NCBI GenBank assembly: GCA_014526335.1
Contig: JACTAT010000040.1
Coordinates: 4,075,582-4,139,581, forward strand
DNA: 64,000 nt
Direction of reading: 5' to 3'
From: Chrysaora quinquecirrha
Taxonomy: Eukaryota > Cnidaria > Scyphozoa > Semaeostomeae > Pelagiidae
This document shows, piece after piece, positions 653-48,770 of this stretch. Position 1 is the stretch's first letter. Each line of letters starts with the position of its first letter. The position numbers were made by a program, and so were the translations under genes. The notes below the pieces were generated by a model, which was not told the origin of the DNA, made no database searches, and saw only the letters and a list, made by a program, of their open reading frames with translations.

Positions 653-12081
<11,429 letters not shown>

Positions 12082-26661: not shown

Positions 26662-26699
26662 GTATCTGCTTATTTCTCTGTAAAATCTATTGTGAATCT

Positions 26700-27172
26700 T
26701 TATTGGTAGATTGCGTCAAAGCTCTATAGGCCCAGCGGGGAATTTGGGTCACATGGGATACGCCAACGTTGTTTGGGGTAGCCTCTCAAATTCTAGAATA
26801 GAATCCCTACAACGTCTTCAAGACAGAGCTATTTCCATAATAGATACGTCCAGGATAACTAACCAATGGCAAAATAATTTCCTACGTGTCGAACAACTTA
26901 TAGCTTTTGATCGGGCAACTATGGCATATAAGATCATGAACAAACTTTGCCTTGAAAATCTCTGGAGTAAATTCCAACAAAGATCCGAATTCTCCAGGTA
27001 CAACACGCGATTCTGCAGAGATCTCCAGATCCCGAGATTTAATCTAGAATATGCCAAAAAAGGATTCTCTTATTCAGCCCTTAAGATCTGGAATGAAACC
27101 CCGATAAATATCAGGGAGCTTCCCACCTTGCGCCAATTTAAAAAACAAATGAAAACCAATTTGATGAGTTGA
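26700..27172 (+). pseudogene. LINE (CR1/L2-type) reverse-transcriptase C-terminal relic
   Basis: An open frame of 153 codons (26711-27172) encodes the region just C-terminal to the reverse-transcriptase core, with VVWGSLSNSRIESLQRLQDR, RDLQIPRFN, ALKIWNETPINIREL and LRQFKKQMKTNL. This pattern is typical of CR1/L2/Rex-like retrotransposon ORF2 C-termini. The 5' part of the element is absent, as in 5'-truncated LINE copies. It sits just after the stop codon of the SLC37-like gene. Confidence 0.8.
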
Positions 27173-28495: not shown

Positions 28496-29646
28496 GGCCC
28501 TGGCCAAACGATCTAACATTGTTGGTCACACATTTGAGATTTTGCTTCTCAAACAAAATTTGTAACCGTTGGGCTACGTCCACAAACATTGCTCGTCCCT
28601 ACAAGCATAGGATGTTTTTGAGGTTTTTCAAAACCATTACTGAAGGAATTCTACTTGCCAAGCAATGTTTAGCGACGTGGTCAAACATTTGTTGTAAAGC
28701 AAATTTAAAGGGTTGCACCAACAATGTTTGATCGTTTGGCCACATCGCAAAACATTGCTCGTCCAACATTTTTTGCGTGATACAAGCATAGAATGTTTTT
28801 GAAGTTTTTCAAAACCATTACTGAAGGAATTCTACTTGCCAAGCAATGTTTAGCGACGTGGTCAAACATTTGTTGTAAAGCAAATTTAAAGGGTTGCACC
28901 AACAATGTTTGATCATTTGGCCACATCGCAAAACATTGCTCGTCCAACATTTTTTGCGTGATACAAGCATGGGATGTTTTTGAAGTTTTTCAAAACCATT
29001 ACTGAAGGAATTCTACTTGCCAAGCAATGTTTAGCGACGTGGTCAAACATTTGTTGTAAAGCAAATTTAAAGGGTTGCACCAACAATGTTTGATCGTTTG
29101 GCCACATCGCAAAACATTGCTCGTCCAACATTTTTTGCGTGATACAAGCATAGAATGTTTTTGAAGTTTTTCAAAACCATTACTGAAGGAATTCTACTTG
29201 CCAAGCAATGTTTAGCGACGTGGTCAAACATTTGTTGTAAAGCAAATTTAAAGGGTTGCACCAACAATGTTTGATCGTTTGGCCACATCGCAAAACATTG
29301 CTCGTCCAACATTTTTTGCGTGATACAAGCATAGAATGTTTTTGAAGTTTTTCAAAACCATTACTGAAGGAATTCTACTTGCCAAGCAATGTTTAGCGAC
29401 GTGGTCAAACATTTGTTGTAAAGCAAATTTAAAGGGTTGGACCAACAATGTTTGATCGTTTTGCCACATCACAAAACATTGCTGGTCCAACATTTTTTGC
29501 GTGATACAAGCATAGAATGTTTTTGAAGTTTTTCAAAACCATTACTGAAGGAATTCTACTTGCCAAGCAATGTTTAGCGACGTGGCCAAACATTTTTTGT
29601 AAAGCAAATTTAAAATGGTTGACCAACAGTGTTTGATCATTTGGCA
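28496..29646. repeat. AAACATTG-word MITE expanded as a 181-bp tandem array
   Basis: It begins GGCCCTGGCCAAACGATC and contains about six units of exactly 181 bp, nearly identical, each with AACATTTTTTGCGTGATAC and AAAACCATTACTGAAGGAAT. The matching element in unit 2 (34801-35068) has a single unit, so the array grew after the duplication. The series of 81-residue open frames is the repeat in translation. Confidence 0.92.
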
Positions 29647-29984
29647 AGGAAGGGCTCAAGGACCGCTTGTCAAAAGGCTGCTGAAATGAAGAGCTTTTAT
29701 TTGGAATTTTCGCTACCGCTCGCACTTATTACAATCTTGTTTTGATTGTTTATTGTTTTAAATTCTAGTTTTGCCAGTTTCATTGATAATTTATAACTGT
29801 TTAATTGTAATATCTAGTCATGTATAATAAAATAAACTAATATTTTTATATAGATTTAAAAATAGATAACATTTATAATTATTAACATCTTGGAATTTAA
29901 GGTTCAATTTTATCGTAGCCTTTTGAAATTTAATAGTGGGTTGCACGTCACAATCATGTCTGAAAATTGAATTTTTATGATTAA

Positions 29985-30600
29985 TTTCTTCTCATCTTGG
30001 AAGAATCAATCATTTCTAACCTTGGGAGACTGGGATCTCAAGTTCCAATTGCCTCTTCTTCACTATCTTCGTCTTCTGCACCAATGCTCTCTGCTCTTCT
30101 CAGCTGGAAAGACTGAGAAATCAATCTTTTCTAACCTTGGAAGACTGAGATCTCAAGTTCCCATTGCCTCTTCTTCACTATCTTCATCTTCTTCCCCATT
30201 GCTTCTCTGCTCTTCTCAGTTTTGTAGACTGAGACATCAGTATCTTCTAACCTGGGAAGATTGAGATCTCAAGATTGCTCTTCTCAGCTTGGAAGACTGA
30301 AATATCATTCATTTTTAACCTTTGAAGACTGAGATCTCTAGTTCCGATTGCCTCTTCCTCACCATCTTCGTCTTCTACCCAAATGCGCTTCTGCTCTTCT
30401 CAGCTTTGAAGAATGTGAACAATCTCTTCTAACCTTGGAAGACTGAGATCTCATGTTCAAATTGCCTCTTCGTCGCTATCTTCGTCTTTTGCCCCAATGC
30501 TCTTCTCAGCTTGGAAGAATGGGATATCAATCTCTTCTAACCTTTGAAGATAGAGATCTTAAATTTCACCCGCCCCTTTCGTCATGCCTTCGTCTCCTGC
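29985..30600. repeat. Minisatellite of GGAAGACTGAGATCTCA units with WGRRRR-like segments
   Basis: Units of roughly 60-100 bp carry TTGGAAGACTGAGATCTCA and, on the minus strand, TGGGGCAGAAGACGAAGAT-like cores resembling the end of the peptide genes' terminal exon (for example LGRRRRW at 30362-30382). They lie just downstream of the minus-strand peptide gene. Most units have stops and no splice acceptor, so they look like relics rather than exons. Confidence 0.75.
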
Positions 30601-30604
30601 CCCA
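30584..30604 (-). pseudogene. Relic of the peptide terminal exon (WGRRRRH)
   Basis: On the minus strand this encodes IDWGRRRRHDERGG then a stop, aligning with GVDWGRRRRW of the family-3 gene. It is 3' of the intact terminal exon at 30845-30945 and has no cysteine block or clear acceptor. Confidence 0.45.
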
Positions 30605-30844
30605 GTCGATGCCATTAGTCTTTGAGATGACTTTAAGGCCAGTACTTGTTCGCGTCGACTATTGTTGTTTGAAAAATGGCACATTCGTCGCTTTTTATAT
30701 GGAAGTTACCGCGGGGTATACGATTTGATATCAGAAGACAGAAAAAGAAACTCATTTGATCGTAAGAATATTCTCATGATAAGATCATACATAATAAATG
30801 AATATCACGCATAAAACAGTTATTTGAGATCTTGCTTCACTCCT

Positions 30845-32921
30845 TTACCATCGTCTTCTCCTGCCCCAACGGACACCCCAGTTTGCGCATCGACGACGAC
30901 AGCTTAGGCCGCAAGGGGAACAAAACCCGGGAGACGGTCCGGCATCTGTTGGGAAAGAGAAATTGCATTATTCAATTTCATTAACGATTCGTGATTTTTT
31001 ATATACCGTATTATCATGAAGAAAGCCTCCATTTTTCAACACCCTTTACAAATTTTGAATTATGTAATAATACTCTTCCCATAGACTTATTACATTCGTC
31101 GTAGTCTACGCTCCACACTCAACCACCCCGCTTCAACTACTCTGAGGAAACAGCAATTATGTTGTTGTAGTTGTTAGCAGCTGTTTCCGAAAGAGTGGAG
31201 GAATGTAATAAGTCTACTGTTCCCACCCCCACCTGTTCCAACCCCCCAGCCATTAGGCCCCTAAGAGAAATTTATGCAAACTATTGATTCTACATTAAAA
31301 CATAAAAAAAAATCGGCTTAATAGAGCTAAAATCTAACCAAATATAAATTAAATGAAATTTATTATATCACGCTACAGAGTTGCATACAACATACAACAC
31401 AACGGCTTTAACAATGGAGATATGAAATATTTGATCTTTTGGCCTAGGCCCTAGTGGTGGATCCAGTTTATGAGATTGTTGCCTGCTCTCATCACCGCAG
31501 TTCTAGCCCTCTTCCCGTCTTTGACCACCACCCCGCAAGGATCTCCGCCTTGCAAGGGCCATCACTTATAAAGGACTGTGCATTAAAAATATTAAGAAAG
31601 AGCACCCTATCCCAAGACGTGTACCTCTATATAGGTATTTTATTCTGGTTTTCAGTCCTTAGCTTGGTCAAAGTCAGGAGTGCTGTTCCCTGGTCCTTAT
31701 CCAAGTTCCTGTTTTAGGGTCCCAAGAAAGGTCCTGTCCCTCAGCCCTGTTCCATGATCCTGTTCTCAGTTCCCTCTGAAGGTCCTGTTCCTTGAGCCAA
31801 GTTCAAGGTCCGGTTTCCCAGTCCTAATCCAGGATCCAAATTCCAGGTTCTCGGCCCTGTTCCAAGGTCCTGAAAGCACTGCAGTTTATCCAAGACCCCA
31901 TCTCCGGATCACACGGTATCGGATTCAATTTTAAGCTGTGTTCATATGGCCCCACTCCCTTTCACATCACGTCGCAGCGCCTATTGTTTTAGACGCCACT
32001 GCATAGCAGCCAGAGGTGTTAAAAACTTCTTTTGTACTGAGCTCTCGCTGTCTATTCAAAACAGAAGTGCTGGAATAATGTCGTATCGGATTCGTGTGTT
32101 CAAACGAGCCCCAAAGCGATCCGATACGAAAAATCACTCCGCAAAAACGGTTACGAAGCATATCGGATTCAATCGGAGCCGTGTGAACAGAACGGATCAG
32201 AAATGAATCCGGTATCGTGTGCACGGGGCCTGAAAATTTATCATTGAAACTCACCTTGACGTTCAGTGTCCTCCTCATCCTGAGTTGCTTCAAAATTACT
32301 TTCTGTCTCATCTTTATCTTCTTCGTCATTCGCATCTTAAATCAGAATTTCTGGCATTTAACAACACTAATTTTTTATAGGAAATTTTGTTCCAAAAAAT
32401 AGAGTAAGGTTTTTTTAGGTTTTTGAGATGCATTGAAAACTTTTATATGATTTTGTGAATTTAAACGCCTCCCTAATAATTAGGGTGCTTCAGGGAACAT
32501 GGGAACATGCGAAATAGATCAAGGTAACAAGGGTAATAAGGGAATGTGGCCAAAATGAAGAAGGGAATAAGGGAACATCATCGGGCAACAGGGATCAGGT
32601 AAAATCCAATCCTCCCTATCAGTCTGCTTGACTATCAATTAGAAGTATAATCCTACAAAACTCCAGGGAAAAATGAGATTTTCTCAAGGGAAGAGAGGAA
32701 AATGCACCCTAACCCCCCCTGAACGACCCTGGATAATTTTAAAAAATTACGCGTCGTTCCCCTAAAATCGGTAAAGTCGATTACTTCTTCCATCTTCCAT
32801 AACATAGTCATATAATAAAGATCAAAGAAAATTTAAAAGAGGGGAAAAAATGAAACTTACTGCAAAATACCAATGCAAGCCCAAGAACAAGAACCAAAAG
32901 CAAAGTTGTCTTCATTTTCAT
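30845..32921 (-). CDS. Secreted acidic-pro/Cys-cationic peptide precursor, WGRRRRW family member 2
   Basis: Minus-strand exons: 32921-32861, 32335-32255, 30945-30845 (stop TAA), phase 1-1, predicted 80 residues. Exon 1: signal peptide; the second ATG (32915) gives 18 residues that align one-to-one with member 1. Exon 2: pro-region of 26 full codons, Asp/Glu-rich, ending EEDTERQ. Exon 3: AGPSPGF, then four cysteines in C-x2-C-x3-C-x3-C spacing with RRR before the last, then a Trp-Gly tail ending WGRRRRW. Before the ATG, a T-run and CCGCAG precede GGCTGATCTG, probably the acceptor of a 5' UTR intron. The acidic pro-region and basic mature region nearly balance, as in cationic antimicrobial precursors; four cysteines could make two disulphides. 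TIR elements fill intron 2. No known family recognised. Confidence 0.75.
31082..31216. repeat. Short TIR element TAGACTTATTACATTC
   Basis: TAGACTTATTACATTCGTCG and GGAATGTAATAAGTCTA are inverted ends about 135 bp apart; the interior has GTTGTTGTAGTTG and CTGTTTCC words. It sits in intron 2 of peptide gene 2, with the sister copy at the same place in gene 3. Confidence 0.75.
31655..31880. repeat. Degenerate GGTCCTGTTCC minisatellite
   Basis: Imperfect 12-20 bp units around AGGTCCTGTTCC / CCCTGTTCCA are repeated about ten times. The sister copy is at 37325-37550. No coding signal. Confidence 0.75.
31906..32230. repeat. TIR element with ATCGGATTC words
   Basis: ACACGGTATCGGATTCAATT at the left mirrors GAATCCGGTATCGTGTGCAC at the right. 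The interior repeats CGGATTC / ATCCGATAC. The 86-codon open frame inside (31946-32206) is not supported as a gene; in the sister copy the frame changes after 60 codons. Confidence 0.65.
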
Positions 32922-32988
32922 TCAGATCAGCCCTGCGGTAAAAAAACTTGTGATTTTAAATAATAAATTGAATGGGTATACTTATATG

Positions 32989-33132
32989 CAGTGGTGTAGA
33001 GCTGGAAAATAACTAGGGGGGCTCTGCTGTGAATTTCGTTGAAGAACAATGCCAAAATATGAAAAATGACCTTTTTCCTCATAAACTAGGGGGGCTCAGC
33101 TCCCCCCAGCTCCCCCCAGCTCTACACCCCTG
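32989..33132. mobile_element. Short hAT-like MITE in peptide gene 2 upstream region
   Basis: CAGTGGTGTAGAGCTGG and CCAGCTCTACACCCCTG are the ends. The 8-bp flanks CTTATATG / CTCATATG differ at one base. Unit 2 lacks it, so it inserted after the duplication or was lost there. It lies about 70 bp upstream of the start codon of peptide gene 2. Confidence 0.75.
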
Positions 33133-33244
33133 CTCATATGTACACAAGGACACTTATTTTGCAAAATAACTTTTATCCATAAACTATTGCAAGATTTCTA
33201 AAGTCTGGGCTATTTTATCATAGTAAAGGGTTTTTACAGTTTCT

Positions 33245-33500
33245 TACAGTCAGACAGTCTTATCTATATATAAACCGTACATATATATAAATCTATATAT
33301 AAATATATATAGATTATCTATATATATATATATATAATTATATAAAAGATACTATTTAAGTCGGATGCTAAAAAGAGAAAGCAGACAAAAAAACACGATT
33401 TAATTCAGCACACTGAGGCCTTGCTAGCTAATGCTTTAATCAGAGTGTGATGTATATACATCTTATCTATATATAAATCTATATATAAACCGTACCCCTA
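33245..33500. repeat. TATA-rich simple repeat
   Basis: CTATATATAAA and TATATATATATA runs, partly present at 39180-39210 in the sister unit. No other feature seen. Confidence 0.8.
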
Positions 33501-34289
33501 AGCCTGTAACATAAAATAAATGGCCTGAAGCCCAAATAATCGACGATTCCATTGAGCTCTTTAGCCCAGTGGAAACATCGTTGGTTCTCTCATCACGCAG
33601 GAGTACATGTTTGAACCCCATCTTTTGCGGTATGCCTCTCGGGAAAAACTCTCCCACATAATCGCGTATTTTGAGTGGACAAATAAAAGACCAGTACAAG
33701 ACCAGAAAAAGTTCCTTAAGTTTCAGGATACTACAGTTTCTTTTTATCATTCAAGGGTCGGTTTCTTAAAAAAAATGCGCGTAATGCAACAAAACATACG
33801 TACCTAAACCCAAAAAGTGACGAAGCCAAATGTTTGCAATGCACATGCACAATCAATCTTCAATTCTTTAGCTTATAAAATTGCTATGATATGCTATGTT
33901 TTTATGGTTTTTCCGCTGGGTCTTTAGTGTCCTATTCTTATGGCGGAAGAATTTATTCACTTTGGTTTGCATAATTTCAAAATGAAACGATCTGATTGGA
34001 TGCTGAATTGTATTCAGAATAAGTAATAACAATTGTTTTCCGTTGAGCGGAAGAATTTCTCAAGACCTGCCAATATTGAGTTGGTATGTATAAATTTCTC
34101 TACACTATTTCAGCCACCCTTCTAGAGGCAGACTTGTCTCCAGTCTATTTCTCAATGGTGGACCTTTGGAGAAGGGCATTGAGAAATAGTCCTGGGGCAA
34201 GTCAATCCCACAGGCCGCAGGAACGCGTCGAACAATCATTCGTCTCCCCCCCCCACCCCTTTGAAAGGACAGCATAAATGCGCCTTTTC

Positions 34290-34580
34290 TTCCTGTCTTG
34301 GAAGACTGATATCTCAGTCTTCATTCATCTTGTATTTTTTTTCTTCTTAGCTGCGTATCTTTGAAAGAAAAGGGAGACGTTGTTCCTTCTTCACGCCTTG
34401 GAAGACTGTGCTCTCAGTCTCTTCCTACTTTTCTGTCTTCTTAACTTTCCATCTTTGGAAGAATGAGAACTTTACGTCCTGCTTTCTTTGGAAGACTGAG
34501 ATGTCAGGCTCTTTTCCTCTTACTTTTCTATCTTCCTAAATTTGTATAATTGGAAGAATTCAATCCATTAGGTCTGTTCT
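34290..34580. repeat. Minisatellite of TTGGAAGACTGAG units, upstream array of unit 1
   Basis: Repeated TCTTGGAAGACTGA, CATCTTTGGAAGAATGAGA and CTTTTCTGTCTTC blocks. Unlike the downstream array, no WGRRRR-coding core is present. Confidence 0.7.
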
Positions 34581-34800
34581 TCTCTCCCGAGTTACTTTTC
34601 TGTCTTAGTTTAGTATCTGTGGAATAATATATTAATTAATCCTGAGATAGCTGGCTATGAGTCTGCTACTGATAGAGAATAAATGATTCTTTTGCAACAA
34701 TCAGGGTAATTTATCCTTCTATTCTTTCATTTTAAACTGTTTAATTTTATACGCGTACATGCAATTTGAAGGTCGGAGCTAGTTGTCCCCCAAAATCTGA

Positions 34801-35068
34801 GGCCCTGGCCAAACGATCTAACATGGTTGGTCAAACATTTGACGTTTTACTTCTCAAACAAAATTTGTGACTGTTGGGCCACGTCCACAAACATTGCTCG
34901 TCCAACATTTTTTGCGTGATGTGATGCAAGCATATAGAATGTTTTTTAAGTTTTTCAAAACCATTACTGAAGGAATTCTGCTTGCCAAGCAATGTTTAGC
35001 GACGTGGTCAAACATTTGTTTTAAAGCAAATTTAAAATGGTTGACCAACAGTGTTTGATCATTTTGCA
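34801..35068. repeat. AAACATTG-word MITE, single-unit sister copy
   Basis: Starts GGCCCTGGCCAAACGATC and ends near GTTTGATCATTTTGCAAGG. It is orthologous to the array at 28496-29646 but unexpanded. Confidence 0.85.
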
Positions 35069-35162
35069 AGGAAGGGCTTAAGGACCGCTTGTCGAAAGGC
35101 TGCTGGTATGGAGAGCTTTTATTCTCGCCGAATGAATTTTCGCTACCGCTCGCAATTATTGC

Positions 35163-35385
35163 AATTGAAGACTGAGATCTCTAGTTCCGATTGCCTCTTC
35201 CTCGCCATCTTCGTCTTCTACCCCAATGCGCTTCTACTCTTCTCAGCTTTGAAGAATGGAATATCAATCTCTTCTAACCTTGGAAGACTGAGATCTCATG
35301 TTCAAATTGCCTCTTCGTCGCTATCTTCGTCTTTTGCCCAAATGCTCTTCTCAGCTTTGAAGAATGGGATATCAATCTGGGATAT
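35163..35385. repeat. Minisatellite unit encoding WGRRRRW on the minus strand
   Basis: Positions 35225-35205 on the minus strand read W-G-R-R-R-R-W and differ from the end of peptide gene 1 by one base in 21. The frame continues past it (RGRGNRN, then stop) and lacks the cysteines. Further units follow with GKRRR-like cores. Confidence 0.65.
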
Positions 35386-35777
35386 CAATAGTGAGACATT
35401 TATTGTTCATGAAGGACATTTAAAATTAAAGTCTGCGATGAGATACGGATAGGATTTTCGAATTTACGCAGCAGTAATACTACTAACTTTGCGTCTTAAG
35501 TTGACACCAAAATGTTTGGAATATTCTCAGTAGACCTGGAAATTTGGTGGCAAACAATTTCATTAAGCATTTACCATCGAACTGTTTGACTTTTATTAAG
35601 GCTGTTAATAATAGGATTTTCGAATGCGGACAGGGCATAGAAACGTTGCATTAGAATTCAAGTGGATGGAACACAGTCAGAGATACCCTTAACCTCCGTG
35701 ACTCACCGACTCACTATCCCACCCAAGGTTGTGTTTTATAAAACTTGGCTTATATTTGACCTTCAGCTTTCATATTA

Positions 35778-36066
35778 TAATGATAATGATGATGATGATT
35801 TTGATGACATGAAGATTATGATGATTATGATGATGGTGATGGTGATGATGATTACTATTATGATTTTGATGGCATGATGATGATGATAATGACCTGATGA
35901 TGATTATGATTACGATAATGATGATGATTATGATGATGGTAATGATGATGATGATGATGATGAGGATGATTCTAATGGTGATCCAAATGTAATAGTTGAT
36001 GATGGCGATAATGATAATTTTGACGGTGCTGATAACTATGATGATGATTATGATGATGATGATAAT
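35778..36066. repeat. (GAT)n microsatellite
   Basis: Imperfect GATGATGAT run of about 290 bp. The Ile- and His-rich frames on both strands are artefacts. Confidence 0.95.
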
Positions 36067-36137
36067 GTTCTTTTTTTTGTCCACAGTTTAATACCCTTTT
36101 ATCAATTCTCCTATGTGTTTACCATTACAAGTAGACT

Positions 36138-36460
36138 AGCTTTTTACCTTGGCACCCGCGATGCGGGTGAGATTTTTACCTTGACACCCGCGATGCGGGT
36201 AAATATTAGTACCAGTTTAGCCTTGGCAAGACAAGATACCACTCAGCTGCCTTTTAACTTGCTGCCTTTTAACTTGGAGCCTTCTGAACTTTCGCTAGAG
36301 TCCGGGGAGGTTAGCTCCCCATTGCATCCCACAACCTGCCCGGACTCTAGCGAAAGTTCAGAAGGCTGCAAGTTAAAAGGCAGCTTAGTGGTATCTTGTC
36401 TTGCCAAGGCTAAACTGGTACTAATATTTACCTGCATCGCGGGTGTCAAGGTAAAAAGCT
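36138..36460. repeat. Foldback element with long arms
   Basis: AGCTTTTTACCTTGGCACCC at the left mirrors GTGTCAAGGTAAAAAGCT at the right, and pairing continues inward through TTGGCAAGACAAGATACCAC and CTTTCGCTAGAGTCCGG to a loop of a few tens of bases. The left arm has extra short duplications (ACACCCGCGATGCGGGT; CTGCCTTTTAACTTG). It is absent from unit 1. Confidence 0.85.
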
Positions 36461-36466
36461 TCACTT

Positions 36467-36605
36467 CTAACCTTGGAAGACTGAGATCTCATGTTCAAAT
36501 TGCCTCTTCGTCGCTATCTTCGCCTTTTGCCCCAATGCTCTTCTCGGCTTGGAAGAATGGGATATCAATCCTTTCTAACCTTTGAAGACTGAGATCTTAA
36601 ATTTC
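36467..36605. repeat. Minisatellite with GKRRR-coding core, unit 2
   Basis: TAACCTTGGAAGACTGAGAT repeats plus, on the minus strand, a core reading W-G-K-R-R-R then a stop. It is the sister of the 30420-30560 array. Confidence 0.65.
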
Positions 36606-36621
36606 AACCGCCCCCTTCGTC

Positions 36622-36642
36622 ATACCTTCGTCTCCTGCCCCA
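36622..36642 (-). pseudogene. Relic of the peptide terminal exon (WGRRRRY)
   Basis: On the minus strand GIDWGRRRRYDEGG aligns with the tail of peptide gene 3. It is the sister of the relic at 30584 and lies 3' of the intact exon at 36893-36987. Confidence 0.45.
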
Positions 36643-36892
36643 GTCGATACCATTGGTCTTTGAGATGACTTTAAGGCCAGTACTTGTTCGCGTCGACTAT
36701 TGTTGTTTGAAAAATGGCACATTCGTCGCTTTTAATATGGAAGTTACCACGGGGTATACGATTTGATATTAGAAGACAGAAAAAGAAACTCATTTGATCG
36801 TAAGAATATTCTCATGATAAGATCATACATAATAAATGAATATCATGCATAAAACAGTTATTTGAGATCTTGCTTCAGTCCTTTACCCCCCT

Positions 36893-39017
36893 TTACCATC
36901 GTCTTCTCCTGCCCCAATCGACACCCCAGTAATCGCATCGACGACGACAGCTTTGGCTGCAAATGGAACAGGGAGACGGTCCGGCATCTGTTGGGAAAGA
37001 GAAATTGCATTATTCAATTTCATTAACGATTCGTGATTTTTTATATACCGATAGACTTATTACATTCGTCGTAGTCTACGCTCCACACTCCACCATCCCG
37101 CTCCAACTACTCTGAGGAAACAGCAATTATGTTGTTGTAGTTGTTAGCAGCTGTTTCCGAAAGAGTGGGAGGAATGTAATAAGTCTACCCGTCTTTGACC
37201 ACCACCTCGCAAGGATCTTTGCCTTGTAGGGGCCATCACTTATTAAGGACTGTGCATTAAAAATATTTAGAAAGAGCACCCTATCCCAAGATGTGTACAT
37301 CTATATAGGTATTTTATTCTGGTTGTCAGTCCTTAGCTTGGTCAAAGTGAGGAGTGCTGTTCCCTGGTACTTATCCAAGTTCCTGTTTTAGGGTCCCAAG
37401 AAAGGTCCTGTTCCTCAGCCCTGTTCCATGATCCTGTTCTCAGTTCCCTCTGAAGGTCCTGTTCCTTGATCCAAGTTCAAGGTCCAGTTTCCCAGTCCTA
37501 ATCCAGGATCCAAATTCCAGGTTCTCGGCCCTGTTCTAAGGTCCTGGAAAGCACTGCAGTACATCCAAGACCCCATCTCCGGATCACACGGTATCGGATT
37601 CAATTTTAAGCTGTGTTCACATGGCCCCACTCCCTTTCACAACACGTCGCAGCGCCTATTGTTTTAGACGCCACTGCATAGCAACCAGAGGTGTTAAAAA
37701 CTTCTTTTGTACTGAGCTCTCGCTGTCTATTCAAAACAGAAGTGCTGGAATAATGTCGTATCGGATTCGTGTGTTCAAACGAGCCCCAAAGCGATCGGAT
37801 ACGAGAAGTAATCCGATACGTACCACGGTACCACCTTCAGAGCGGAGTGATTTCACTCCGCAAAAACGGTTACGAAGCATATCGGATTCAATCGGAGCCG
37901 TGTGAACAGAACGGATCAGAAACGAATCCGGTATCGTGTGAACGGGGCCCGGGGGAGGTACTTAGTATAATTTGGGTACGGGTATGTGCCGCCCATATGG
38001 GTGGGTTTTGGGCACTGAAATTCTCTAAACATGGGTATGATTTTAACCAAAACCCCATAGTAGTGGGTGGCAAATTGAATAAAAGTCGAAAGTTTAACTT
38101 TAATTCGGTCAAAAAGTGGCAAAATCGCTTCAAAGATGTTCATAGTACAATATCAAGCAATAAATAGGTCTAGAAAGTCTTATTATTCTCATATTCCGCT
38201 TATTTCTACTCATAAAATAGGGTCTGTTTCTGCAAAGGTTTTCATTATAAGTGGGTGGGTTTCCGAAATCTGGGCGGCACATCCCCGTCCATTCATAAGT
38301 GAAGTACCCCCCCCGGGGGGAACGGGGCCTGAAAATTTATCATTGAAACCCACCATGACGTTCAGTGTCCTCCTCATTCTGAGTTGCTTCAAAACCTCTT
38401 CCTGTCTCATCTTTATCTTCGTCGTCATTCGCATCTTAAATCAGAATTTGTGGCATTTAACAACGCTAATTTTTTATAGGAAATTTTGTTCCAAAAAATA
38501 GAGTGTGGTTTTTTTAGGTTTTTGAGGTGCATTTAAGACTTTATATGATTTTGTGAATTGATGCCTCCCTAATAATGAAGGTGCTTTAGGGAACATGGGA
38601 ACATGCGAAACAGATCAAGGTAACGAGGGTAATAAGGGAATGTGGCCAAAATGAAGAAGGGAATAAGGGAACATCATCGGGCAACAGGGATCAGGTAAAA
38701 TCCAATCCTCCCTATCAGTCTGCTTGACTATCAATTAGAAATATAATCATACAAAACTCCAGGGAAAATGAGATTTTCTCAAGGGAAGAGAGGAAAATGC
38801 ACCCTAACCCCCCTGAACGACCCTGGATAATTTAAAAAAATTACGCGTCGTTCCCCTAAAATCGGTAAAGTCGATTACTTCTTCCATCTTCCATAACATA
38901 GTAAAATCATAACGATCAAAGAAAAGTTTTAAAAGAGGGGGAAACATAAAACTTACTGCAAAATACCAATGCAAGCCCAAGAACAAGAACCAAAAGCAAA
39001 GTTGTCTTCATTTTCAT
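36893..39017 (-). CDS. Secreted acidic-pro/Cys-cationic peptide precursor, WGRRRRW family member 3
   Basis: Minus-strand exons: 39017-38957, 38434-38354, 36987-36893 (stop TAA), phase 1-1, predicted 78 residues. It is the tandem-duplicate paralogue of the gene at 30845-32921. The signal-peptide exon appears identical. The pro-region differs at several codons and ends EEDTERH. The mature region keeps C-x2-C-x3-C-x3-C with RRR before the last cysteine but replaces the loops (SI, SQS) and the segment after it (DYWGVDWG). It is two residues shorter before the first cysteine and keeps the terminal WGRRRRW. The frame stays open despite many changes in the mature exon, which suggests constraint on frame and cysteines. 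The exon 2 donor is GTGGGT. Intron 2 holds four TIR or minisatellite blocks. Function unknown; same interpretation as the other members. Confidence 0.74.
37052..37187. repeat. Short TIR element TAGACTTATTACATTC, sister copy
   Basis: Same element and position as 31082-31216, in intron 2 of peptide gene 3. Confidence 0.75.
37325..37550. repeat. Degenerate GGTCCTGTTCC minisatellite, sister copy
   Basis: Matches 31655-31880. No coding signal. Confidence 0.7.
37582..37949. repeat. TIR element with ATCGGATTC words, sister copy
   Basis: Matches 31906-32230 but retains an extra AATCCGATACGTACC segment in the centre. Its right end was the target of the insertion at 37950. Confidence 0.65.
37950..38320. 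mobile_element. CCCGGGGG-ended element with GGGCGGCACAT arms
   Basis: G/C-run ends enclose TACGGGTATGTGCCGCCC and GGGCGGCACATCCCCGTCC. AACGGGGCC occurs on both sides, and unit 1 has one copy there (empty site), so it inserted after the tandem duplication. Same family as 55299-55681. Confidence 0.82.
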
Positions 39018-40059
39018 TCAGATCAGCCCTGCGGTAAAAAAAGTTCTGATTTGTACACAAGGACACTTATTTTGCAAAATAACTTTTGTCCATAAACTTT
39101 AAACTATTGCAAGATATCTAAAGTCTGGGCTATTTTATCATAGTAAAGGGTTTTTACAGTTTCTCACAGTCAGACAATCTTATCTATATATAAATCTATA
39201 TATAAACCGTACCCCTAAGCCTGTAACATGAAATAAATGGCTTGAAGCCCAAATAATCGACGATTCCATTGAGCTCTTTAGCCCAGTGGAAACATCGTTG
39301 GTTCTCTCATCACGCAGGAGTACATGTTTGAACCCCATCTTTTGTGGTATGCCTCTCGGGAAAAACTCTCCCACATAATCGCGTATTTTGAGAGGACAAA
39401 TAAAAGACCACTGCAAGACTATAAAAAGTTCCTTACGTTTCAGGGCAATCAGTACTATAGTTTCTTTTTATCATTCAAGGGCCGGTTTCTTATAAAATGC
39501 GCGTAATGCAACAAAACATACGTACCTAAACCCAAAAAGTGACGAAGCCAAATGTTTGCAATGCACATACACACTCAATCTTCAGCTTATAAAATTGTTA
39601 TGATATGCTAAGTTTTATGGTTTTTCCGCTGGGTCTTTTGTGTCCCATTCTTTTGGCGGAAGAATTCATTCACTTTGATCCGCATAATTTCAAAACGAAA
39701 TGATCTGATTGGATGCTGTTGTATTCAAAATAACTACTAACAATTGTTTTCCGTTGAGCGGAAGAATTTCTCAAGACCTGCCAATATTTGAGATGGTATT
39801 TATTTCTGTACAGTATTTCAGCCACCCTCCCACAGATAGACTTGTCTGAAGTCTATTTCTCAATATCCTTCTCCAAAGGTCCACCATTCCGTGGAAATCT
39901 CCTGTGTTTCCACGGAATGGTGGACCTTGGAGAAGGGCATAGAGAAATAGACCTGGACAGACCTGGGGCAAGTCAATCCCACAGGCCGCAGGAATGCGTC
40001 GAACAATCATTCGTCTCCCCCCCCACCCCTTTGAAAGGACAGCATAAATGCGCCTTTTC

Positions 40060-40570
40060 TTCCTGTCTTGGAAGACTGATATCTCAGTCTTCATTCATCT
40101 TGTATTTTTTTTCTTCTTAGCTGCGTATCTTTGAAAGAAAAGGATACATTGTTAGTTCTTCATGCCTTGGAAGACTGTGCTCTCAGTCTCTTCCTACTTT
40201 TCTGTCTTCTTAACTTTCCATCTTTGGAAGAATGAAATATTTATGTTTGATTTAGGAAGACTTGAGATTGAGATGTCAGTGTCAGTCTCTATTCTTCCTA
40301 CTTTCCTATATTTTTAACTTTCCATCTTTGGAAGAATGAGAAATTTTACGTCTTGCTTTCTTTGGAAGACTGAGACATCAGTCTCTTTCCTTCCTACATT
40401 TATATGTTTAACTTTCCATCTTTGGAAGAATGAGATCTCTTTACTGGCATCATCACTCTTTTTCTGTTCTGGAAGACTGAAATCCCAGTCTCTTTTCCTC
40501 GTACTTTTCTATCTTCCTAAATTTGTATCATTGGAAGACTTCGACCCTTACTACTGTTCTTCTTTTCTCC
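40060..40570. repeat. Minisatellite of TTGGAAGACTGAG units, upstream array of unit 2
   Basis: Sister of 34290-34580, with more units (CATCTTTGGAAGAATGAGA recurs). Looser related units continue to about 41130. Confidence 0.7.
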
Positions 40571-42870: not shown

Positions 42871-43947
42871 TTTCCCTCCCCCAGGGTTTGACCCCAGGGA
42901 ACGCTATGTATATTTTGGGTGCTTGGGAAGCAACACCTACAAGGGTATCAATTTGCATGATTTCTGGTATAAGGGGCTGTATCAATGTCCCAATGATTTT
43001 CCAACTTTGATATTTTGGTCCTTTGGTACAAATTTAAGATGTTACAGATATTTTGATATTTGATTCATTGCCTATGCGTTTGCACATTTGCATAAAATTG
43101 GTATTAAGTTTGGTATGTTTTTGAAGCTTGGGTGGACGTCCCTAAGCAAAATCTGGTTAAGTTCATTCCTAATGGGGTTTGAAACACTGCATGGCCAAAA
43201 ATGCATAAAATGCTGATTTGATCTCTTGTATTCTAGGAATTCATCTGGTCTTGGGAGCTGATAATCCAATCATGGAATTCCTGAAAGATGGATTGCAATT
43301 TTTGGCAGAACACTGGGCATTAACAGCATGTCTTACCATAATTTTTTTGGTCTATTGGCATTACGTAAAGACATATACAGCAATCAAAAGGCTTGGTTTT
43401 AAAGGACCAACTCCATGGCCACTCGTTGGAACTTCAGGTTGGCTTCTTCAAGGCAAAGATTTGCATTTGGTATGGGATGAATATTGCAAAAAGTATGGCA
43501 AAGTTTATGGAATGTATTTATTTCAAATGCCAACTCTCATTGTTTCTGATACTGAGGTGCTGAAGAGTATTTTGGTGAAAGATTTTGAGAAGTTTCATGA
43601 CAGACCAGTAAGCTCCATTTTATTTGTTTCCCTGCAGATATAGACTATCCTCCTTTTAATGACATTAGGGACCGTCTTCAAACATTTCATTCAAATTTGT
43701 TTAAGAAATTAGTGTCATTAGACCAATTCTGAAATGAATAGCCTGAAAGATTACACAAATTAGTTTGTTTCAAGTCACTTAAAACTTGAATCAATTTTTA
43801 TCGTATTTGTTCAATTTGGTCCAAATATGTTCCAAGTTTGATCCAATTCCACATTCATACAAATCATTCTGAATATCTCTTAAATATATTCAATTACACA
43901 CTTTTAGGGCCTTTTCATACGAGTCCGCTTACCGTGCAGCCCACTAC

Positions 43948-44187
43948 TCTAAGGTGCCAAATAAACGTGCCCCCCGTTTATTAATTTTGAGTTTTTTCCC
44001 CCACGCCCACGGACCTTATAAGGACCCCCCATTTATTAATTTTGGAAGAAAAAATTTCATTTGTGAAAGGATTAAACCACGTTTATTAAATTTCCCCCAC
44101 CCCTGGACCTTATTAGGACCCCCCGTTTATTAAATTTTTGAAAATCCCCCTTTATTTGGACCCCCCCGTTTATTTGGCACCTTAGAG
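43948..44187. repeat. TIR element ACTCTAAGGTGCCAAATAAA
   Basis: ACTCTAAGGTGCCAAATAAA mirrors TTTATTTGGCACCTTAGAGT. The interior repeats CCCCGTTTATTAA and GGACCTTAT words. It lies in intron 2 of P450 copy 1. Confidence 0.8.
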
Positions 44188-45102
44188 TAAGCAAGACAAA
44201 TTTCAAGTTCTGTTCATATGGGATAAGTCTGCCCCACCTACTGAGATGGAAATTGTTCATTTCGGCAACTTCAAAGCCTTTTGTGGTTTCACAAGCCCGC
44301 CTGCTTAGATCTCACCACTGCTCAAGCAAGACCTCACTTACCCGGCTAGCTCGCTTTCTCATATGGACAGTATTGAATTCTGTATGGAGATTGTGGATTA
44401 GGTGGGATCTTGCTTAGTGGGCTGGCCGGTTAAGCGGCTCATATTAACAGGCCCTTTGAAGGCGTGTTTCTAGGCAATAAGGACTTGGAATAAATTTTAA
44501 AATGAAGAACCCGACGATAAATAACTGCAAATTTGCAATATCCAGTTGATTATATTGACATGAACATTTGTATATAAGACAGTAAACAGCTAAACTTGAC
44601 ATTATCAGTAAGATTTAGACCTCGTTTACACTTAAGAAACTGGATCGGCGCTGGTCCGCTCCAGGGCCAGTTTTGGCTCAAAAACGCCTTCTGTTTACAC
44701 GGGATCTCTTGGATCCGTACCTTTTCACGCTCTGTTTAGAGCCAATTCTGGATCTGTTCAGCAGTAGAGAGAGCCAGCTCGTCTCTGGCTATGTTTAGAT
44801 CCCTTATAAAAACTCTAGATCGGATACAAACTGGTACATATACGAAACGTGACTTAAAGTGAATGAATAAAGCATCATATTTTGGGTACTAGGACATAAG
44901 GTCAAAGGAAATATGGGACGAAAAGTGAAAAAACTGAGAAAATACCTTCAGGTTCTTTATACATCACTCAGAGGTGTCGGAAGAAAGGCAGTGGGGCACC
45001 AGGCAGCGGGGCAAGAAGCAAAAAATTCGGGGCAAACAACAGGAAAATCAACGAATTTCACAATTTTTATGAGGGCAAGGGGGCAATCTGCATTCACTAC
45101 TA

Positions 45103-45581
45103 CACGCAGTTTTTTAAGAGCAACTTCGCTCGGCCCTAGTTGAAAACGATGCTTATTTTTGGACCTTTTTTGGCCACCTTTTAGTAGCAAAAGTTGCTTA
45201 GTCGTTGCTTAATTTCTACTGTATCTTTTTGCCCTAAGAATGGTATAGAGGCTAGAAAAACAGTGCAAAATCTAACATTGCACATAAAATGACTGGAATC
45301 ATTTCTCCCTGCTGATATTGTTACCATTAGAGACTTTGTATTGAAAATTGAATGGAAACCCCCCAATGAAATGCCTCACTTAACGAAAAACACTCCGTTG
45401 ATATGCAAGTTTTTACGACGAAAGAATGGAAATAGCTTCTATGTTAATCAATCCTCGATTGTTTACAGTGATATAAATTATCGAAAATTTAAATAGTTGC
45501 TTAGGTTTTTTGCCTGTGGTACTATACGTTGCTTGAGCTTTAAGGCCTTCTACATCTTAGTTGCTTATTAAAAACTGCGTG
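45103..45581. repeat. TA-target MITE, word TAAGCAAC, CACGCAG ends
   Basis: Starts CACGCAGTTTTTTAAGAGC and ends GTTGCTTATTAAAAACTGCGTG, flanked by TA. The GTTGCTTA word is iterated. It is closely related to the copy at 56398; this copy has the empty site for the insert nested there. Confidence 0.8.
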
Positions 45582-45773
45582 TATTAAAAGTGTCCATAAT
45601 TCTTAAAAATGAGGACTATACACCAAACCCTAGATGAAAAATTTTTATTTCTTTCTTCCTTTCTAAGAGTATGGGCATGAAATTTCCAGAGCCGATAGAC
45701 AGTATGCTTACTTCAGTAACTGGACAAAGATGGAAGGACATCAGAAGTGTGTTGACACCAACCTTCACTTCTG

Positions 45774-46310
45774 ATCTAGGGGAGTCTACAGAACGAAAAC
45801 CGAAGAACGAAGAACTACAAAACGAAGACCGAAGACAATATCCAAATCAAATACAATGAAATACGCTTATACGAAACATGATCAAAGATCAAAACAACAA
45901 GGAAAATAAATTGAATAAACCGCGGGGATGACTAAAGTCAACGTCTTCGTTTCAAAGAAAAATGGCCAAAATCTGTAAAACGAAGACAACTCTATAAAAC
46001 CAAAAAACGCATTCCTTAAACGATTTCTTTGGTTTAGATCATGAATATTTGCATTTATAACGTATTTTCGGTTTCCGTTTTGTAGATTCCCATCTGGTTA
46101 GTCTATCGTTTCTGACAACAATGTTTTTTAAAGAAAACTTCTGCTAAGTATACTGTTTTGCGTTGTCTGAATCTGGGCGGCCTGTCGAAAATGAGAGGCT
46201 ACCAAAATAATGCGCCCTAAGCTCACTGCATCCATATCTAAAATTTAGCTTTCGAAAAGGAGGAAAACTGCTCCTTACCTTTTCTTATATTCTTGTGGAA
46301 AAAAGTTAAA
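45774..46310. other. Foreign segment interrupting P450 copy 1 exon 2
   Basis: Sequence from 45774 has no counterpart in P450 copy 2. It begins ATCTAGGGGAGTCTACAG and runs into purine-rich AACGAAGACC words. From about 46312 the text again matches the copy 2 intron (GTGCTACCCATAGCTACC region, 55130-55215). The insert therefore replaced the end of exon 2 and the start of the intron. Confidence 0.6.
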
Positions 46311-47436
46311 CTAGGTTTCAGGCAAGTGTATAAAAATAGAGATGTGCGCTACCCATAGCCACTCCATCTAACTGCAGTATGTTTAGTTGTCAAAGCTAAA
46401 CTCCGCTGATCTGGTAGCTGACTTCTTCAACAGAAGCATTACTGCTGTCTCTGAGTGAACAATACTTTATCCTTTAAGTCGATTGATGTTCAAAACACAA
46501 TACCAGTCCAGCTTCACTTTCGGATTGAAGCATTTCGATCCACATTTGATTTGGCTTTTTCTTGCATTGTTGAGAAGTGTCACCGTCTTTGGATGTTCCT
46601 TGTTCCCAGTCCTCCCCTGTTCACACGTGCTGGTCACGTTGTGTCCCACGGTGACGTTTTTGGACATTCGCCCGTGTTGAGCAGAGGTCGTACACGGTTG
46701 GTTGACGTGACAGTAAGAGAGAAAACGCAAATATGGAAAGTACCACTTTCGGAATTCTTGTAAATAGTTGCTTGTGTTTGTTAATTGCTATTCACTACGC
46801 ATGTATATCTACTATTTCCTTATAGTAGGTTCCAGTTTTGCTTACATACAAAGTGTCTCTGTATAATAGTCATGACAATGAATGTGCAGTTAAAATTAAG
46901 GAACTATTAAGGAACTTTTGGAACTACAATTCAATCAATAGAGGTCCAAAAATAAGGAACTTTAAGAACTAGGCCTTGAGCTAGGTTCTTTACAAAAAGC
47001 ATGTACTATGTGTCGCATCGATCATGATGTATATCGTTCAACTCTAGGATGTCCTGGGCTTAATGTTGGATTCCCAAAACCCAGAGAATAAAGGACACCA
47101 TCTAACCGAAGAAGAGTTACTTGCTCAGATGGTTCTGTTTATCGCTGCTGGTTATGATACATCAAGTAATACCCTTGGATTAACATGTTATCATTTGGCC
47201 TTATTTCCTGAAATTCAAGATAAACTTGTTGAAGAAATCAATGAAGTCTGTGGTTCAAGTGACCCAGTCACGTATGAGATTATTCAGAAGATGTCTTATC
47301 TGGAAGCGTGTATTTCAGAGACACTACGTTTATATCCACCAGGTATGATGGCCTTTGTTTTCATTTCATTCTTCTCTAGTAATTTTTAGCCTTTGAAGTT
47401 TGAGGTGTACAAAGCTTGCAAGATATAGCGGAAATA

Positions 47437-47840
47437 CGCGCTTTTTTATAAAGAACCACTTTATAAGGAACCTACATGTAGACGGCCCGAAAATTTAAAG
47501 AACTTATACTACTAAAGAGAAAGTCATTAAGGAACTTTTCAATGTTGAATGCTTTTATTGCTGCAAATAATCAAGAATTAAAAAGCCGGTTCCATTCATT
47601 TGCAGTCGAAAATCACAAAAATTGTACGTTAAGCATGTATCAAAAATGTTTCCTTGAGTAGTCTCGAGCTTTGTTTACATGCAATTGTCTCTCTTTTATT
47701 GTTAAGACCACTGTATGTGCAGTTAAAATTAAGAACATATTAAGGAAGTTTTTGAACTACAATTGCCTCAAAAGAGGTCCAAAAATAAGGAACTTTAAGA
47801 ACTAGGCCTTGAGGTAGGTTCCTTATTAACAAAAAGCGTG
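47437..47840. repeat. TA-target MITE, word TAAGGAAC
   Basis: Starts CGCGCTTTTTTATAAAG and ends TTCCTTATTAACAAAAAGCG(TG), flanked by TA. TAAGGAAC and AAAGAACTT words are iterated. It sits in the last intron of P450 copy 1 and is absent from copy 2. Confidence 0.75.
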
Positions 47841-48770
47841 TATCTTTAGACATTGACATTACTTAAAAGCGGTTCGTACATGTTTTTCTAAGCAGCTATA
47901 GAGAGATTTTCATCCTTTATTTTAGGTTTTGCATTGGACAGAGTTGTCAGCCAGTCATGCAACATCAATGGAATCCCATTTGAGAAAGGAACAGCCGTTT
48001 TCGTTCCGGTTTATACACTGCACCGCGACGAAAAATACTGGCCTGAGCCCGAAACATTCAAACCTGAGAGATTTCTTCCGGAAAATAAAGATTCCATTCA
48101 CCAGTTCACTTATTTGCCGTTTGGTGGCGGGCCGAGAAGTTGCATTGGAATGCGGTTCGCTTGGATGGAAATGAAAACAGTTTTGGTTCGAATGCTGCAG
48201 AAGTATCGCCTTGTCAGAGGGCCTGAAACGAGTGTTCCAGTCAAGTTTAGGGTCAGAGGTGTTCTTGTCCCAGCGGGCCCAGCGGAGCCTATTTACGTGC
48301 GCATAGAGAAAAGAGACACATAAATTGTAAGACTTTCAACTTTAATTTTGTGTGTAGGAAAGTCTTCATTGTACAAAAGTTGAAAACGCCGAAAACGTAT
48401 GCATTTCATAAGGATCTCTTTAAGATATTTGTTATAGATGCACTCTTTTTTCAATAAGCAACCGGACTTTTGTCCTGCCCTCAACGTTGCTTTAATTATG
48501 GACATTTTGGTGTTTGACCCTCAAAATTGTTTAAAAGCTGCTTAACAATGTTTGTATTAGCAAACAGGATATATGTCCTTGTGATCCTGAAAATCTTAGA
48601 TTGTAGCTCGTTTCGAGGGGCATTTCACTCTGCAAAAAGGCGTACGAGATTTCCATCAAAACAAAAGGACTTTCAAGGGACTTCAGAGAAAACAATAGAA
48701 CTTCCAGCAAAGGTGTACGAAATTTCAAGGAGTGAATTGCCCCTCATTTCGTTTACTGGACTAGTGAGGC

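Follow-up and report, generated by a model that had tools for sequence, protein, structure and literature searches.

The window, the 64,000-nucleotide stretch of DNA analysed here, contains three related genes, termed m1, m2 and m3, each of which was re-derived from the window sequence as an intact three-exon model encoding a short precursor with a signal peptide (70, 80 and 78 amino acids, respectively). All nine exons, together with their phases and stop codons, lie where a preliminary description had placed them, and its observations that the three precursors end in an identical WGRRRRW, and that m1 has two cysteines whereas m2 and m3 share the pattern C-x2-C-x3-C-x3-C, were likewise reproduced. 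Both junctions are of phase 1 in all three genes. The precursors are not readable as one open frame, which bears out the earlier remark that single-frame ORF calling misses them. The features are as follows, with exon 1 being hydrophobic in each gene and called a signal peptide by inspection:

5667..5668, plus strand: candidate acceptor of a non-coding 5' exon of m1, CACTGCAG/GGTTGATCAGAG..ATG; putative, m2 and m3 being similar
5694..5748, plus strand: m1 exon 1, signal peptide of 18 residues judged by its hydrophobic core, ending in phase 1
5898..5987, plus strand: m1 exon 2, acidic pro-region, charge -12, last residues ..DNERK
6769..6836, plus strand: m1 exon 3, 22 residues and a stop, with C-x4-C
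6813..6833, plus strand: WGRRRRW codons of m1, 5 of 21 bases changed relative to m2 and m3, all silently
32933..32934, minus strand: candidate acceptor of a non-coding 5' exon of m2, TTTTTTTACCGCAG/GGCTGATCTGA ATG; putative
32861..32921, minus strand: m2 exon 1, signal peptide MKMKTTLLLVLVLGLALVFC
32255..32335, minus strand: m2 exon 2, acidic pro-region, charge -11, last residues ..DTERQ
30845..30945, minus strand: m2 exon 3, DAGPSPGFCSPCGLSCRRRCANWGVRWGRRRRW and a stop
30848..30868, minus strand: WGRRRRW codons of m2
39029..39030, minus strand: candidate acceptor of a non-coding 5' exon of m3; putative
38957..39017, minus strand: m3 exon 1, signal peptide, 61 of 61 bases as in m2
38354..38434, minus strand: m3 exon 2, acidic pro-region, charge -8, last residues ..DTERH; weaker donor atg/GTGGGT
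36893..36987, minus strand: m3 exon 3, DAGPSPCSICSQSCRRRCDYWGVDWGRRRRW and a stop
36896..36916, minus strand: WGRRRRW codons of m3, DNA the same as in m2

The exons are predicted to be spliced as listed. All six introns are of the GT-AG type (donors GTAAGT in three, GTATAT, GTGAGT and the weaker GTGGGT after m3 exon 2), and the intron-1 acceptors of m1 and m2 agree at 13 of 15 bases. An acceptor-like GCAG/GG site 11 nt upstream of the ATG in m2 and m3, and 25 nt upstream in m1, suggests a non-coding 5' exon for all three genes. In a search within the window the signal exon of m2 retrieves that of m1 at E 4e-4. The observed signal-exon score was reached in 0/200 dinucleotide shuffles of the window, the tail score alone in 2/200, and both scores, with the two parts on the same strand, correctly ordered and no more than 2.5 kb apart, in 0/200. 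The signal-exon match and the shuffles with both parts indicate that the likeness of the genes is not due to chance.

The opposition of charge between pro-region and mature region noted earlier holds at the level of the exons, with exon 3 carrying +3, +7 and +4 in m1, m2 and m3 against the acidic exon 2. It does not survive removal of the GRRRRW tail in m1 and m3, where the remaining side-chain charge is -1 and 0; their cationic charge therefore depends on keeping the RRRR tail.

Local repeats and divergence of the genes

Two of the genes, m2 and m3, lie inside one segmental duplication, so that the three genes represent two independent lineages and not three; m1 is the diverged member. A 114-nt repeat that includes tail-like codons is scattered around them:

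30423..34477: copy A of the segmental duplication, with m2; approximate limits
36461..40246: copy B of the segmental duplication, with m3; approximate limits
30007..30606, minus strand: array of the 114-nt repeat 3' of m2, units with decayed tail codons and 3' UTR
36458..36644, minus strand: 114-nt repeat 3' of m3, DWGRRRRY unit first
35149..35378, minus strand: further 114-nt units, one of which reads HWGRRRRWRG..

Ungapped blocks of copies A and B are 91-100% identical (among 20 of 24 repeat families listed). The end of m1 exon 3 aligns with the 114-nt repeat at 79% identity across 47 nt; this exon matches several units and is detected by the repeat profile at E 0.0018. In the case of m3 exon 3 there are three weak matches (E 0.001, 0.077 and 0.56), and m2 exon 3 matches no unit at E<=1. 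The tail copies within the repeat vary, with the last Trp replaced by His or Tyr, Arg by Lys and Gly by Cys, and with stops; this shows that the sequence changes where it lies outside a gene. The repeats were rejected as peptide-coding on account of stops in that frame.

Within the genes the tail behaves differently. Between m1 and m2 five of its 21 bases have changed and none of its residues, an outcome seen in a fraction of 0.0002 of 200,000 trials of five random substitutions. Between m2 and m3 exon 3 differs at 9 of 95 aligned bases and the tail at 0 of 21, making it the best conserved part of this exon. The tail is constrained at the protein level, whereas the sequence upstream of it changes faster: ahead of the tail only one Pro, two Cys and one Gly are invariant in exon 3. 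The Trp beside the putative amide-donor Gly is also invariant, and all three precursors share the final Trp.

A different alignment, made by eye, explains the silent tail changes by one substitution and two 3-base indels and so by fewer events.

The dN/dS comparison of m2 with m3 suggested in the preliminary description was run here. The signal exon differs at 0/61 bases, exons 2 and 3 at 16/176 and the introns at 54/1460 (Fisher p 0.002), and 15.5 of the 16 coding changes are non-synonymous (non-synonymous sites against introns, p 0.0002). When clustering of changes is allowed for, the excess is 10 clusters in 176 against 43 in 1460 (p 0.07), while block resampling gives p 0.002-0.009; a divergence of 10% is also seen in a 100-base stretch of intron 1. 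We downgraded positive selection from a strong reading because the block and cluster controls weakened it, and regard it as suggestive, not conclusive. The only indel between the exons of m2 and m3 is of 6 bases and in frame.

Similarity searches and genomic context

The m2 precursor matched nothing at E<=1 in a set of 5.8 billion proteins (2 candidates), and the three-member alignment nothing at E<=10 (30 candidates), the candidates being sequences of 0.55-1.75 of the query length with shared 5-residue words, such that CL390, discussed below, would be skipped if longer. Within these word and length limits no homologue of the family was recovered, in line with its earlier characterization as undescribed. 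With m2 alone as query, the PDB gave six weak matches (best E 0.2). Ten viral contig stretches gave none. Matches of m2 to the Pfam conotoxin and frog skin peptide families remained below threshold (17.8 against 25.1 and 15.9 against 27 bits); m3 scored below m2, and m1 matched no family. No Rfam family at the gathering score and no ARAGORN prediction was found. In the openly licensed literature (CC0/CC BY/CC BY-SA) GRRRRW occurs in three papers, one of them on an ascidian antimicrobial candidate. The family was not noticed among the matches listed there for this motif and related topics, and it appears to be undescribed in the sense of being absent from the protein searches and the literature so covered.

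Among 98 genome-contig stretches searched with m2 two apparent relatives turned up, and neither was upheld: in one the Cys motif belongs to an ORF reading like a cytidine deaminase, and the other lies on the strand opposite a long ORF that looks like a transporter, both ORFs having been named by eye.

A neighbouring P450 gene, joined by hand, offers an indirect guide to the host. Among the 120 matches listed, its product is 57-60% identical to proteins of the jellyfish Rhopilema and 36-44% to those of anthozoans (8 of the 120), and the listed eukprot proteins without an organism name reach 56-65% (best two, 65 and 64%). Thus, among the named cnidarian matches listed the P450 is nearest to jellyfish, and the gene family probably sits in a jellyfish-type (medusozoan) genome. 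An origin from a coral or from Hydra was set aside on this evidence. The comparisons with the literature made below draw on passages of PMC7523074, PMC9545775, PMC6909153, PMC4306955, PMC10945409, PMC5744923, PMC10433978, PMC4334923, PMC6441219, PMC8222990, PMC9156746, PMC7270403, PMC6410321 and PMC7387483.

Possible roles of the Trp-Arg tail

The encoded peptides could be novel signals for metamorphosis or could serve in defence. Our leading reading, held tentatively, is that m1-m3 are CL390-like Trp-Arg signal precursors. CL390 of Aurelia is described as the precursor of the strobilation inducer, a secreted arginine-repeat protein whose active heptapeptide, WSRRRWL, is said to trigger strobilation, the polyp-to-medusa metamorphosis. 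Fuchs et al. 2014 is referred to here through papers citing it. We favor this reading because of the intact models, the conserved phases and acceptor, the 0/200 shuffles, the protein-level constraint on the tail, its resemblance to WSRRRWL and the jellyfish-like P450. The resemblance consists of W-x-R3/4-W only and was sought post hoc.

By this scheme exon 1 would supply the signal peptide, exon 2 the acidic pro-region, and exon 3 a Cys segment ending in WGRRRRW. The working part would be the conserved tail, with its two tryptophans and the glycine and four arginines between them. The acidic pro-region would hold it inactive within the precursor, and once secreted it would serve as a signal carrying Trp/indole, much as WSRRRWL is reported to do; signal cleavage, tail release and the use in the life cycle are what we infer from this layout. 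Compared by published description, CL390 and CL631 of Aurelia share with m1-m3 a jellyfish host (probable for m1-m3), a signal peptide, arginine repeats (RRRR in all three of our genes and additionally RRR in m2 and m3), a short Trp-Arg-Trp motif and a reported lineage restriction. They differ in that the exact WSRRRWL is not present in m1-m3, with WGRRRRW in its place, and in the Cys pairs of m1-m3, which go unmentioned in the CL390 descriptions.

CL390 is reported to be absent from other published cnidarians and has been proposed to be Aurelia-specific. A CL390-like protein of Red Sea Aurelia is without WSRRRWL but carries an additional C-terminal Trp, a point in favor of the CL390-like reading. 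The absence of WSRRRWL from that strain and the reported inactivity of the published heptapeptide in other Aurelia lines tell against this reading, as does a tail that doubles as an amidation/convertase site, use of which would discard it. Indoles, thought to mimic the heptapeptide, are described as inducers of metamorphosis in every discomedusan tested and in one cubozoan; their action makes an endogenous Trp-bearing signal outside Aurelia plausible. Their reported lack of effect in a coronate and two hydrozoans counts against the reading. Staurozoan polyps, which by these accounts transform at the apex and remain attached, are a case to which strobilation is not applicable.

The endogenous inducer is of interest here, as indoles act widely, yet CL390 was suggested to be Aurelia-specific and its heptapeptide is missing in some Aurelia strains. 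A constrained Trp-Arg-Trp tail in what appears to be another jellyfish offers a concrete, synthesizable candidate. It is conceivable, if rather doubtful, that m1-m3 are the first Trp-Arg metamorphosis hormone precursors outside Aurelia and represent the endogenous Trp-bearing signal mimicked by synthetic indoles throughout jellyfish; in that case the Arg-flanked Trp pair would be conserved and the remainder would have evolved fast enough to escape similarity searches. Were they host-defence or amidated peptides instead, the family would still appear undescribed and missed by single-frame ORF calling.

W-G-R-R-R-R is a textbook amidation/convertase signal; neither this nor the likeness to the Aurelia heptapeptide had been remarked upon in the preliminary description. 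It raises an alternative that we consider unlikely, namely that m1-m3 are precursors of amidated disulfide-ring peptides acting as neuropeptides or hormones of the cnidarian Wamide kind. A convertase would cut within RRRR, a carboxypeptidase would trim the arginines and the Gly would become the amide, yielding ..CPWTGW-NH2 (m1), ..WGVRW-NH2 (m2) and ..WGVDW-NH2 (m3), with the N-terminus at the exon 2/3 border (..ERK/E, ..ER/Q and ..ER/H, respectively). All three have the Gly followed by basic residues (G-RRRR), and the Gln after Arg in m2 could turn into pyroglutamate. Published accounts describe medusozoan precursors cut at GR, GKR, GKKR and GKRR sites; pQPPGVWamides are found among them, as are cyclic peptides whose C-x4-C ring has the size of that in m1. 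Wamides are further described as regulating life-cycle transitions. The cyclic FRamides of Scyphozoa and Cubozoa resemble our peptides in the six-residue C-x4-C ring (m1), a Trp near the ring and a Gly-Arg processing site, but end in WFR(X)amide rather than Trp. Moreover, the medusozoan neuropeptide precursors described there hold several copies each, whereas m1-m3 have one C-terminal copy. Anthozoan LRWamides do come from single-copy precursors, as do Antho-RWamides, and ..GVRWamide would come from m2; however, these peptides directly follow the signal, away from the C-terminus, whereas those of m1-m3 are C-terminal with Cys, and m1 and m3 have no Arg before the Trp. Amidation would also make waste of the last Trp, which is identical in all three, while the presumed ligand before the Gly varies and a conserved peptide ahead of it is not present.

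We hold it equally improbable that m1-m3 encode defence peptides on the damicornin plan. The acidic pro-region would then neutralise a peptide rich in Trp, Arg and Cys, which upon its release would disrupt the membranes of microbes. The coral damicornin precursor is described as comprising a signal peptide, an acidic pro-region, a cationic C-terminal Cys peptide and a Gly amidation signal, a layout that m1-m3 share (m1 and m3 only with the tail retained), including a possible amide-donor Gly. At the border of pro-region and peptide, where damicornin and aurelin are cut at a dibasic site, there is RK in m1 and a single Arg in m2 and m3. The Hydra arminins and periculins are, by description, likewise clusters of paralogues with bipartite charge and a lineage-restricted occurrence, and are reported as Hydra-only; an ascidian peptide with GRRRRW has been put to an antimicrobial test. 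The mostly non-synonymous excess of exons 2 and 3 over introns would suit host defence, but is weaker with clustering and has its counterpart in the intron 1 stretch. Against it also stand the charges of m1 and m3 without the tail, the sub-threshold Pfam toxin and antimicrobial matches of m2 and m3 with none for m1, and the cysteines: damicornin (40 residues, anthozoan) and aurelin are described with six cysteines in three disulfides, m1-m3 have two or four with a Trp-Arg tail in a jellyfish-type setting. The coral and Hydra comparison drawn in the preliminary description fits poorly for the same reasons of cysteine count and the jellyfish-like P450.

Finally, it is very improbable that m1-m3 are non-expressed, non-functional copies with the tail as a spread piece of the 114-nt repeat, as the shared tail codons and the weak donor of m3 exon 2 might suggest, given three intact frames, conserved splice sites, silent tail changes between m1 and m2, and an in-frame m2/m3 indel where the repeat units carry stops.

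Gene models and predicted splicing of the three precursors

The preliminary description had proposed three genes sharing a three-exon plan (signal peptide, acidic pro-region and Cys-containing segment) and a common C-terminal heptapeptide, and this is reproduced exactly by models rebuilt from the window sequence:

5694-6836 (+), m1: exon lengths 55/90/68, phase 1-1, 70 residues
30845-32921 (-), m2: exon lengths 61/81/101, phase 1-1, 80 residues
36893-39017 (-), m3: exon lengths 61/81/95, phase 1-1, 78 residues

On translation, all three products terminate in WGRRRRW (the tail), and GT-AG borders flank 6/6 introns, whose predicted junctions are 5748/5898 and 5987/6769 (m1), 32861/32335 and 32255/30945 (m2), and 38957/38434 and 38354/36987 (m3). 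When the m2 signal exon is used as a query within the window, that of m1 is retrieved with an E-value of 4e-4, a score matched in 0/200 dinucleotide shuffles of the window; the score of the tail alone is matched in 2/200, and a correctly ordered signal exon and tail no more than 2.5 kb apart in none of the 200. The intron-1 acceptors of m1 and m2 are identical at 13 of 15 bases despite intron lengths of 149 and 525, the conservation that a genuine splice site would show; splicing of the three genes is predicted from sequence. A non-coding first exon is likely in each, because GCAG/GG followed by a similar TGATC(A/T)GA is present shortly upstream of every ATG, which would place its junctions at 5669, 32932 and 39028. 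The exon-2 donor of m3 at 38348-38356 (-) reads atg/GTGGGT, as against aag/GTGAGT in m2, and may weaken the splicing of m3.

No homologue was recovered from a set of 5.8 billion proteins among candidates of 0.55-1.75 query length sharing 5-residue words. Likewise, among the matches listed from excerpts of the open-licence literature no similar peptide family was noticed, though the string GRRRRW occurs there in three papers. The genes belong to a known class, the secreted cnidarian peptide precursors, but the family itself appears to be undescribed.

Duplication, divergence and repeats

As m2 and m3 lie within one segmental duplication (~30423-34477, copy A, and ~36461-40246, copy B; ungapped blocks 91-100% identical), the family represents two independent lineages. 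Between m1 and m2 the tail differs at 5/21 bases and at no residue; with five random substitutions in the tail, all residues were kept in a fraction of 0.0002 of 200,000 trials. A by-eye alignment with two 3-base indels requires only one substitution, which makes the number of events uncertain, but the predicted protein sequence of the tail is preserved between m1 and m2 whichever alignment applies. Upstream of it, the exon-3 residues common to all three genes are limited to one Pro, one Gly and two Cys: the tail is invariant and the middle of exon 3 is free to vary.

A dN/dS comparison of m2 and m3 had been proposed for exon 3, and its outcome is suggestive only. The signal exon is unchanged (0/61 bases), while exons 2 and 3 together differ at 16/176 bases, plus an in-frame 6-base indel, and the introns at 54/1460; by the site counts, 15.5 of these 16 coding differences are non-synonymous. 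The exonic excess over the introns is significant by Fisher's test (p 0.002) and block resampling (p 0.002-0.009), but merging adjacent changes raises p to 0.07, the silent/replacement split alone gives p of 0.03 to 0.13, and a 100-base segment within intron 1 is equally diverged (10/97). The pattern is suggestive of diversifying selection, short of proof.

A 114-nt tandem repeat contains decayed copies of the WGRRRRW codons together with peptide-gene 3' UTR. Its tail-bearing arrays are:

30007-30606 (-), 3' of m2
36458-36644 (-), 3' of m3
35149-35378 (-), further units

The units read DWGRRRRH, DWGRRRRY, HWGRRRRWRG and HLGRRRRW-stop, plus forms further decayed, and in copy B about 1.1 kb with an Asp-rich frame interrupts the repeat. 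Four units match the exon-3 end and 3' UTR of m1 at 78-80% over 44-47 nt; a window search with m1 exon 3 found no equal-scoring stretch beyond the array and m1 itself. Exon 3 of m3 gives weak matches to three units, and that of m2 matched none at E<=1. The units look like copies of an m1-type exon-3 end, although events may have run in the reverse order.

In their second introns, m2 and m3 each contain an element of ~135 bp bounded by perfect terminal inverted repeats of 16 bp (TAGACTTATTACATTC / GAATGTAATAAGTCTA; 31082-31216 and 37052-37187), with a lone further end at 42204; it resembles a small transposon probably present prior to the duplication. A 181-nt tandem repeat (families D2, D3) occurs near the duplicated units at 29000-29701 and 34934-35123.

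Candidate roles of the tail

The tail itself would be the working part of the precursor, a reading we favor because it is fixed while the peptide upstream is variable. One rival is an amidated Cys-ring Trp-amide, in which W-G-RRRR would be merely an amidation/convertase site. In excerpts of published accounts, Gly-basic sites are a feature of medusozoan precursors, among which are those for C-x4-C cyclic peptides and for GVWamides, and the m2 product would end in ..GVRWamide, close to the anthozoan LRWamides described there. The computed [M+H]+ values are 1072.602 for WGRRRRW; 1729.746 (m1), 3061.366 or, with pyroGlu, 3044.340 (m2) and 2979.229 (m3) for the amidated cores; and 2598.235, 3929.855 and 3847.718 for the respective products that keep the tail, taking the exon 2/3 border as N-terminus and all disulfides as closed. 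However, under the amidation reading the last Trp would be waste and the pre-Gly peptide the conserved ligand, the opposite of what is observed: the pre-Gly peptide varies while the last Trp stays constant. Another rival, a host-defence peptide from a damicornin-like precursor as initially suggested, retains the likeness in precursor layout and fits the clustered, fast-changing Hydra AMP families of the literature excerpts, but the six Cys of damicornin and aurelin are absent, and the cationic mature region holds in all three only with the tail kept, the side-chain charge without GRRRRW being -1 in m1, +3 in m2 and 0 in m3.

With the tail as the putative working part, our tentative judgement, held with rather less than even confidence, is that the genes may act most like CL390, the Aurelia strobilation-inducer precursor with the active heptapeptide WSRRRWL. 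In the published excerpts, a Red Sea CL390-like protein (GenBank KM587721) 68% identical to it is without the heptapeptide and has an extra C-terminal Trp, and synthetic indoles are active in all discomedusans tested and a cubozoan, and inactive in a coronate and two hydrozoans. Together these make a precursor with W-G-R4-W at its stop codon, in what is probably another jellyfish, a promising candidate for the endogenous signal that is still missing. Against this, the heptapeptide is described in the same kind of excerpts as inactive in other Aurelia lines, and the likeness of the tail to WSRRRWL was sought after the fact, with CL390 compared by its published description. The three genes are filed under none of the known families: not CL390, as the exact heptapeptide is absent from all three and the likeness was judged from published descriptions; not damicornin or aurelin, given their six Cys; and not the known neuropeptide families, from which copy number and peptide position differ.

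Neighbouring genes and other window features

A 500-N run at 13615-14114 is an assembly gap or masked stretch. A 158-aa frame at 26696-27172 (+) resembles by eye the terminal part of a non-LTR retrotransposon protein, and a Pfam search returned no family for it. Two tandem cytochrome P450 genes of several exons each lie at 43209-48323 (+) and 53470-60379 (+), the last exon of the former scoring 143.8 bits to PF00067. With hand-joined exon pieces of the latter as query, 3533 of 8000 candidates scored passed E 0.001, and the best 120 of these were considered. Of the matches listed, two eukprot proteins rank first (65 and 64%), followed by one labelled GoldUCD, which we take to be Aurelia (60%), Rhopilema esculentum (57%, and 60% across 76% of the query) and a further eukprot protein (56%). 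Eight anthozoan rows among the best 120 of 3533 (Oculina x3, Pocillopora x2, Orbicella, Exaiptasia and Actinostola) reach 36-44%, about the level of vertebrate P450s. By these identities the locus most probably belongs to a jellyfish-type genome. Among the named matches listed, the second P450 is closest to jellyfish proteins named P450 3A.
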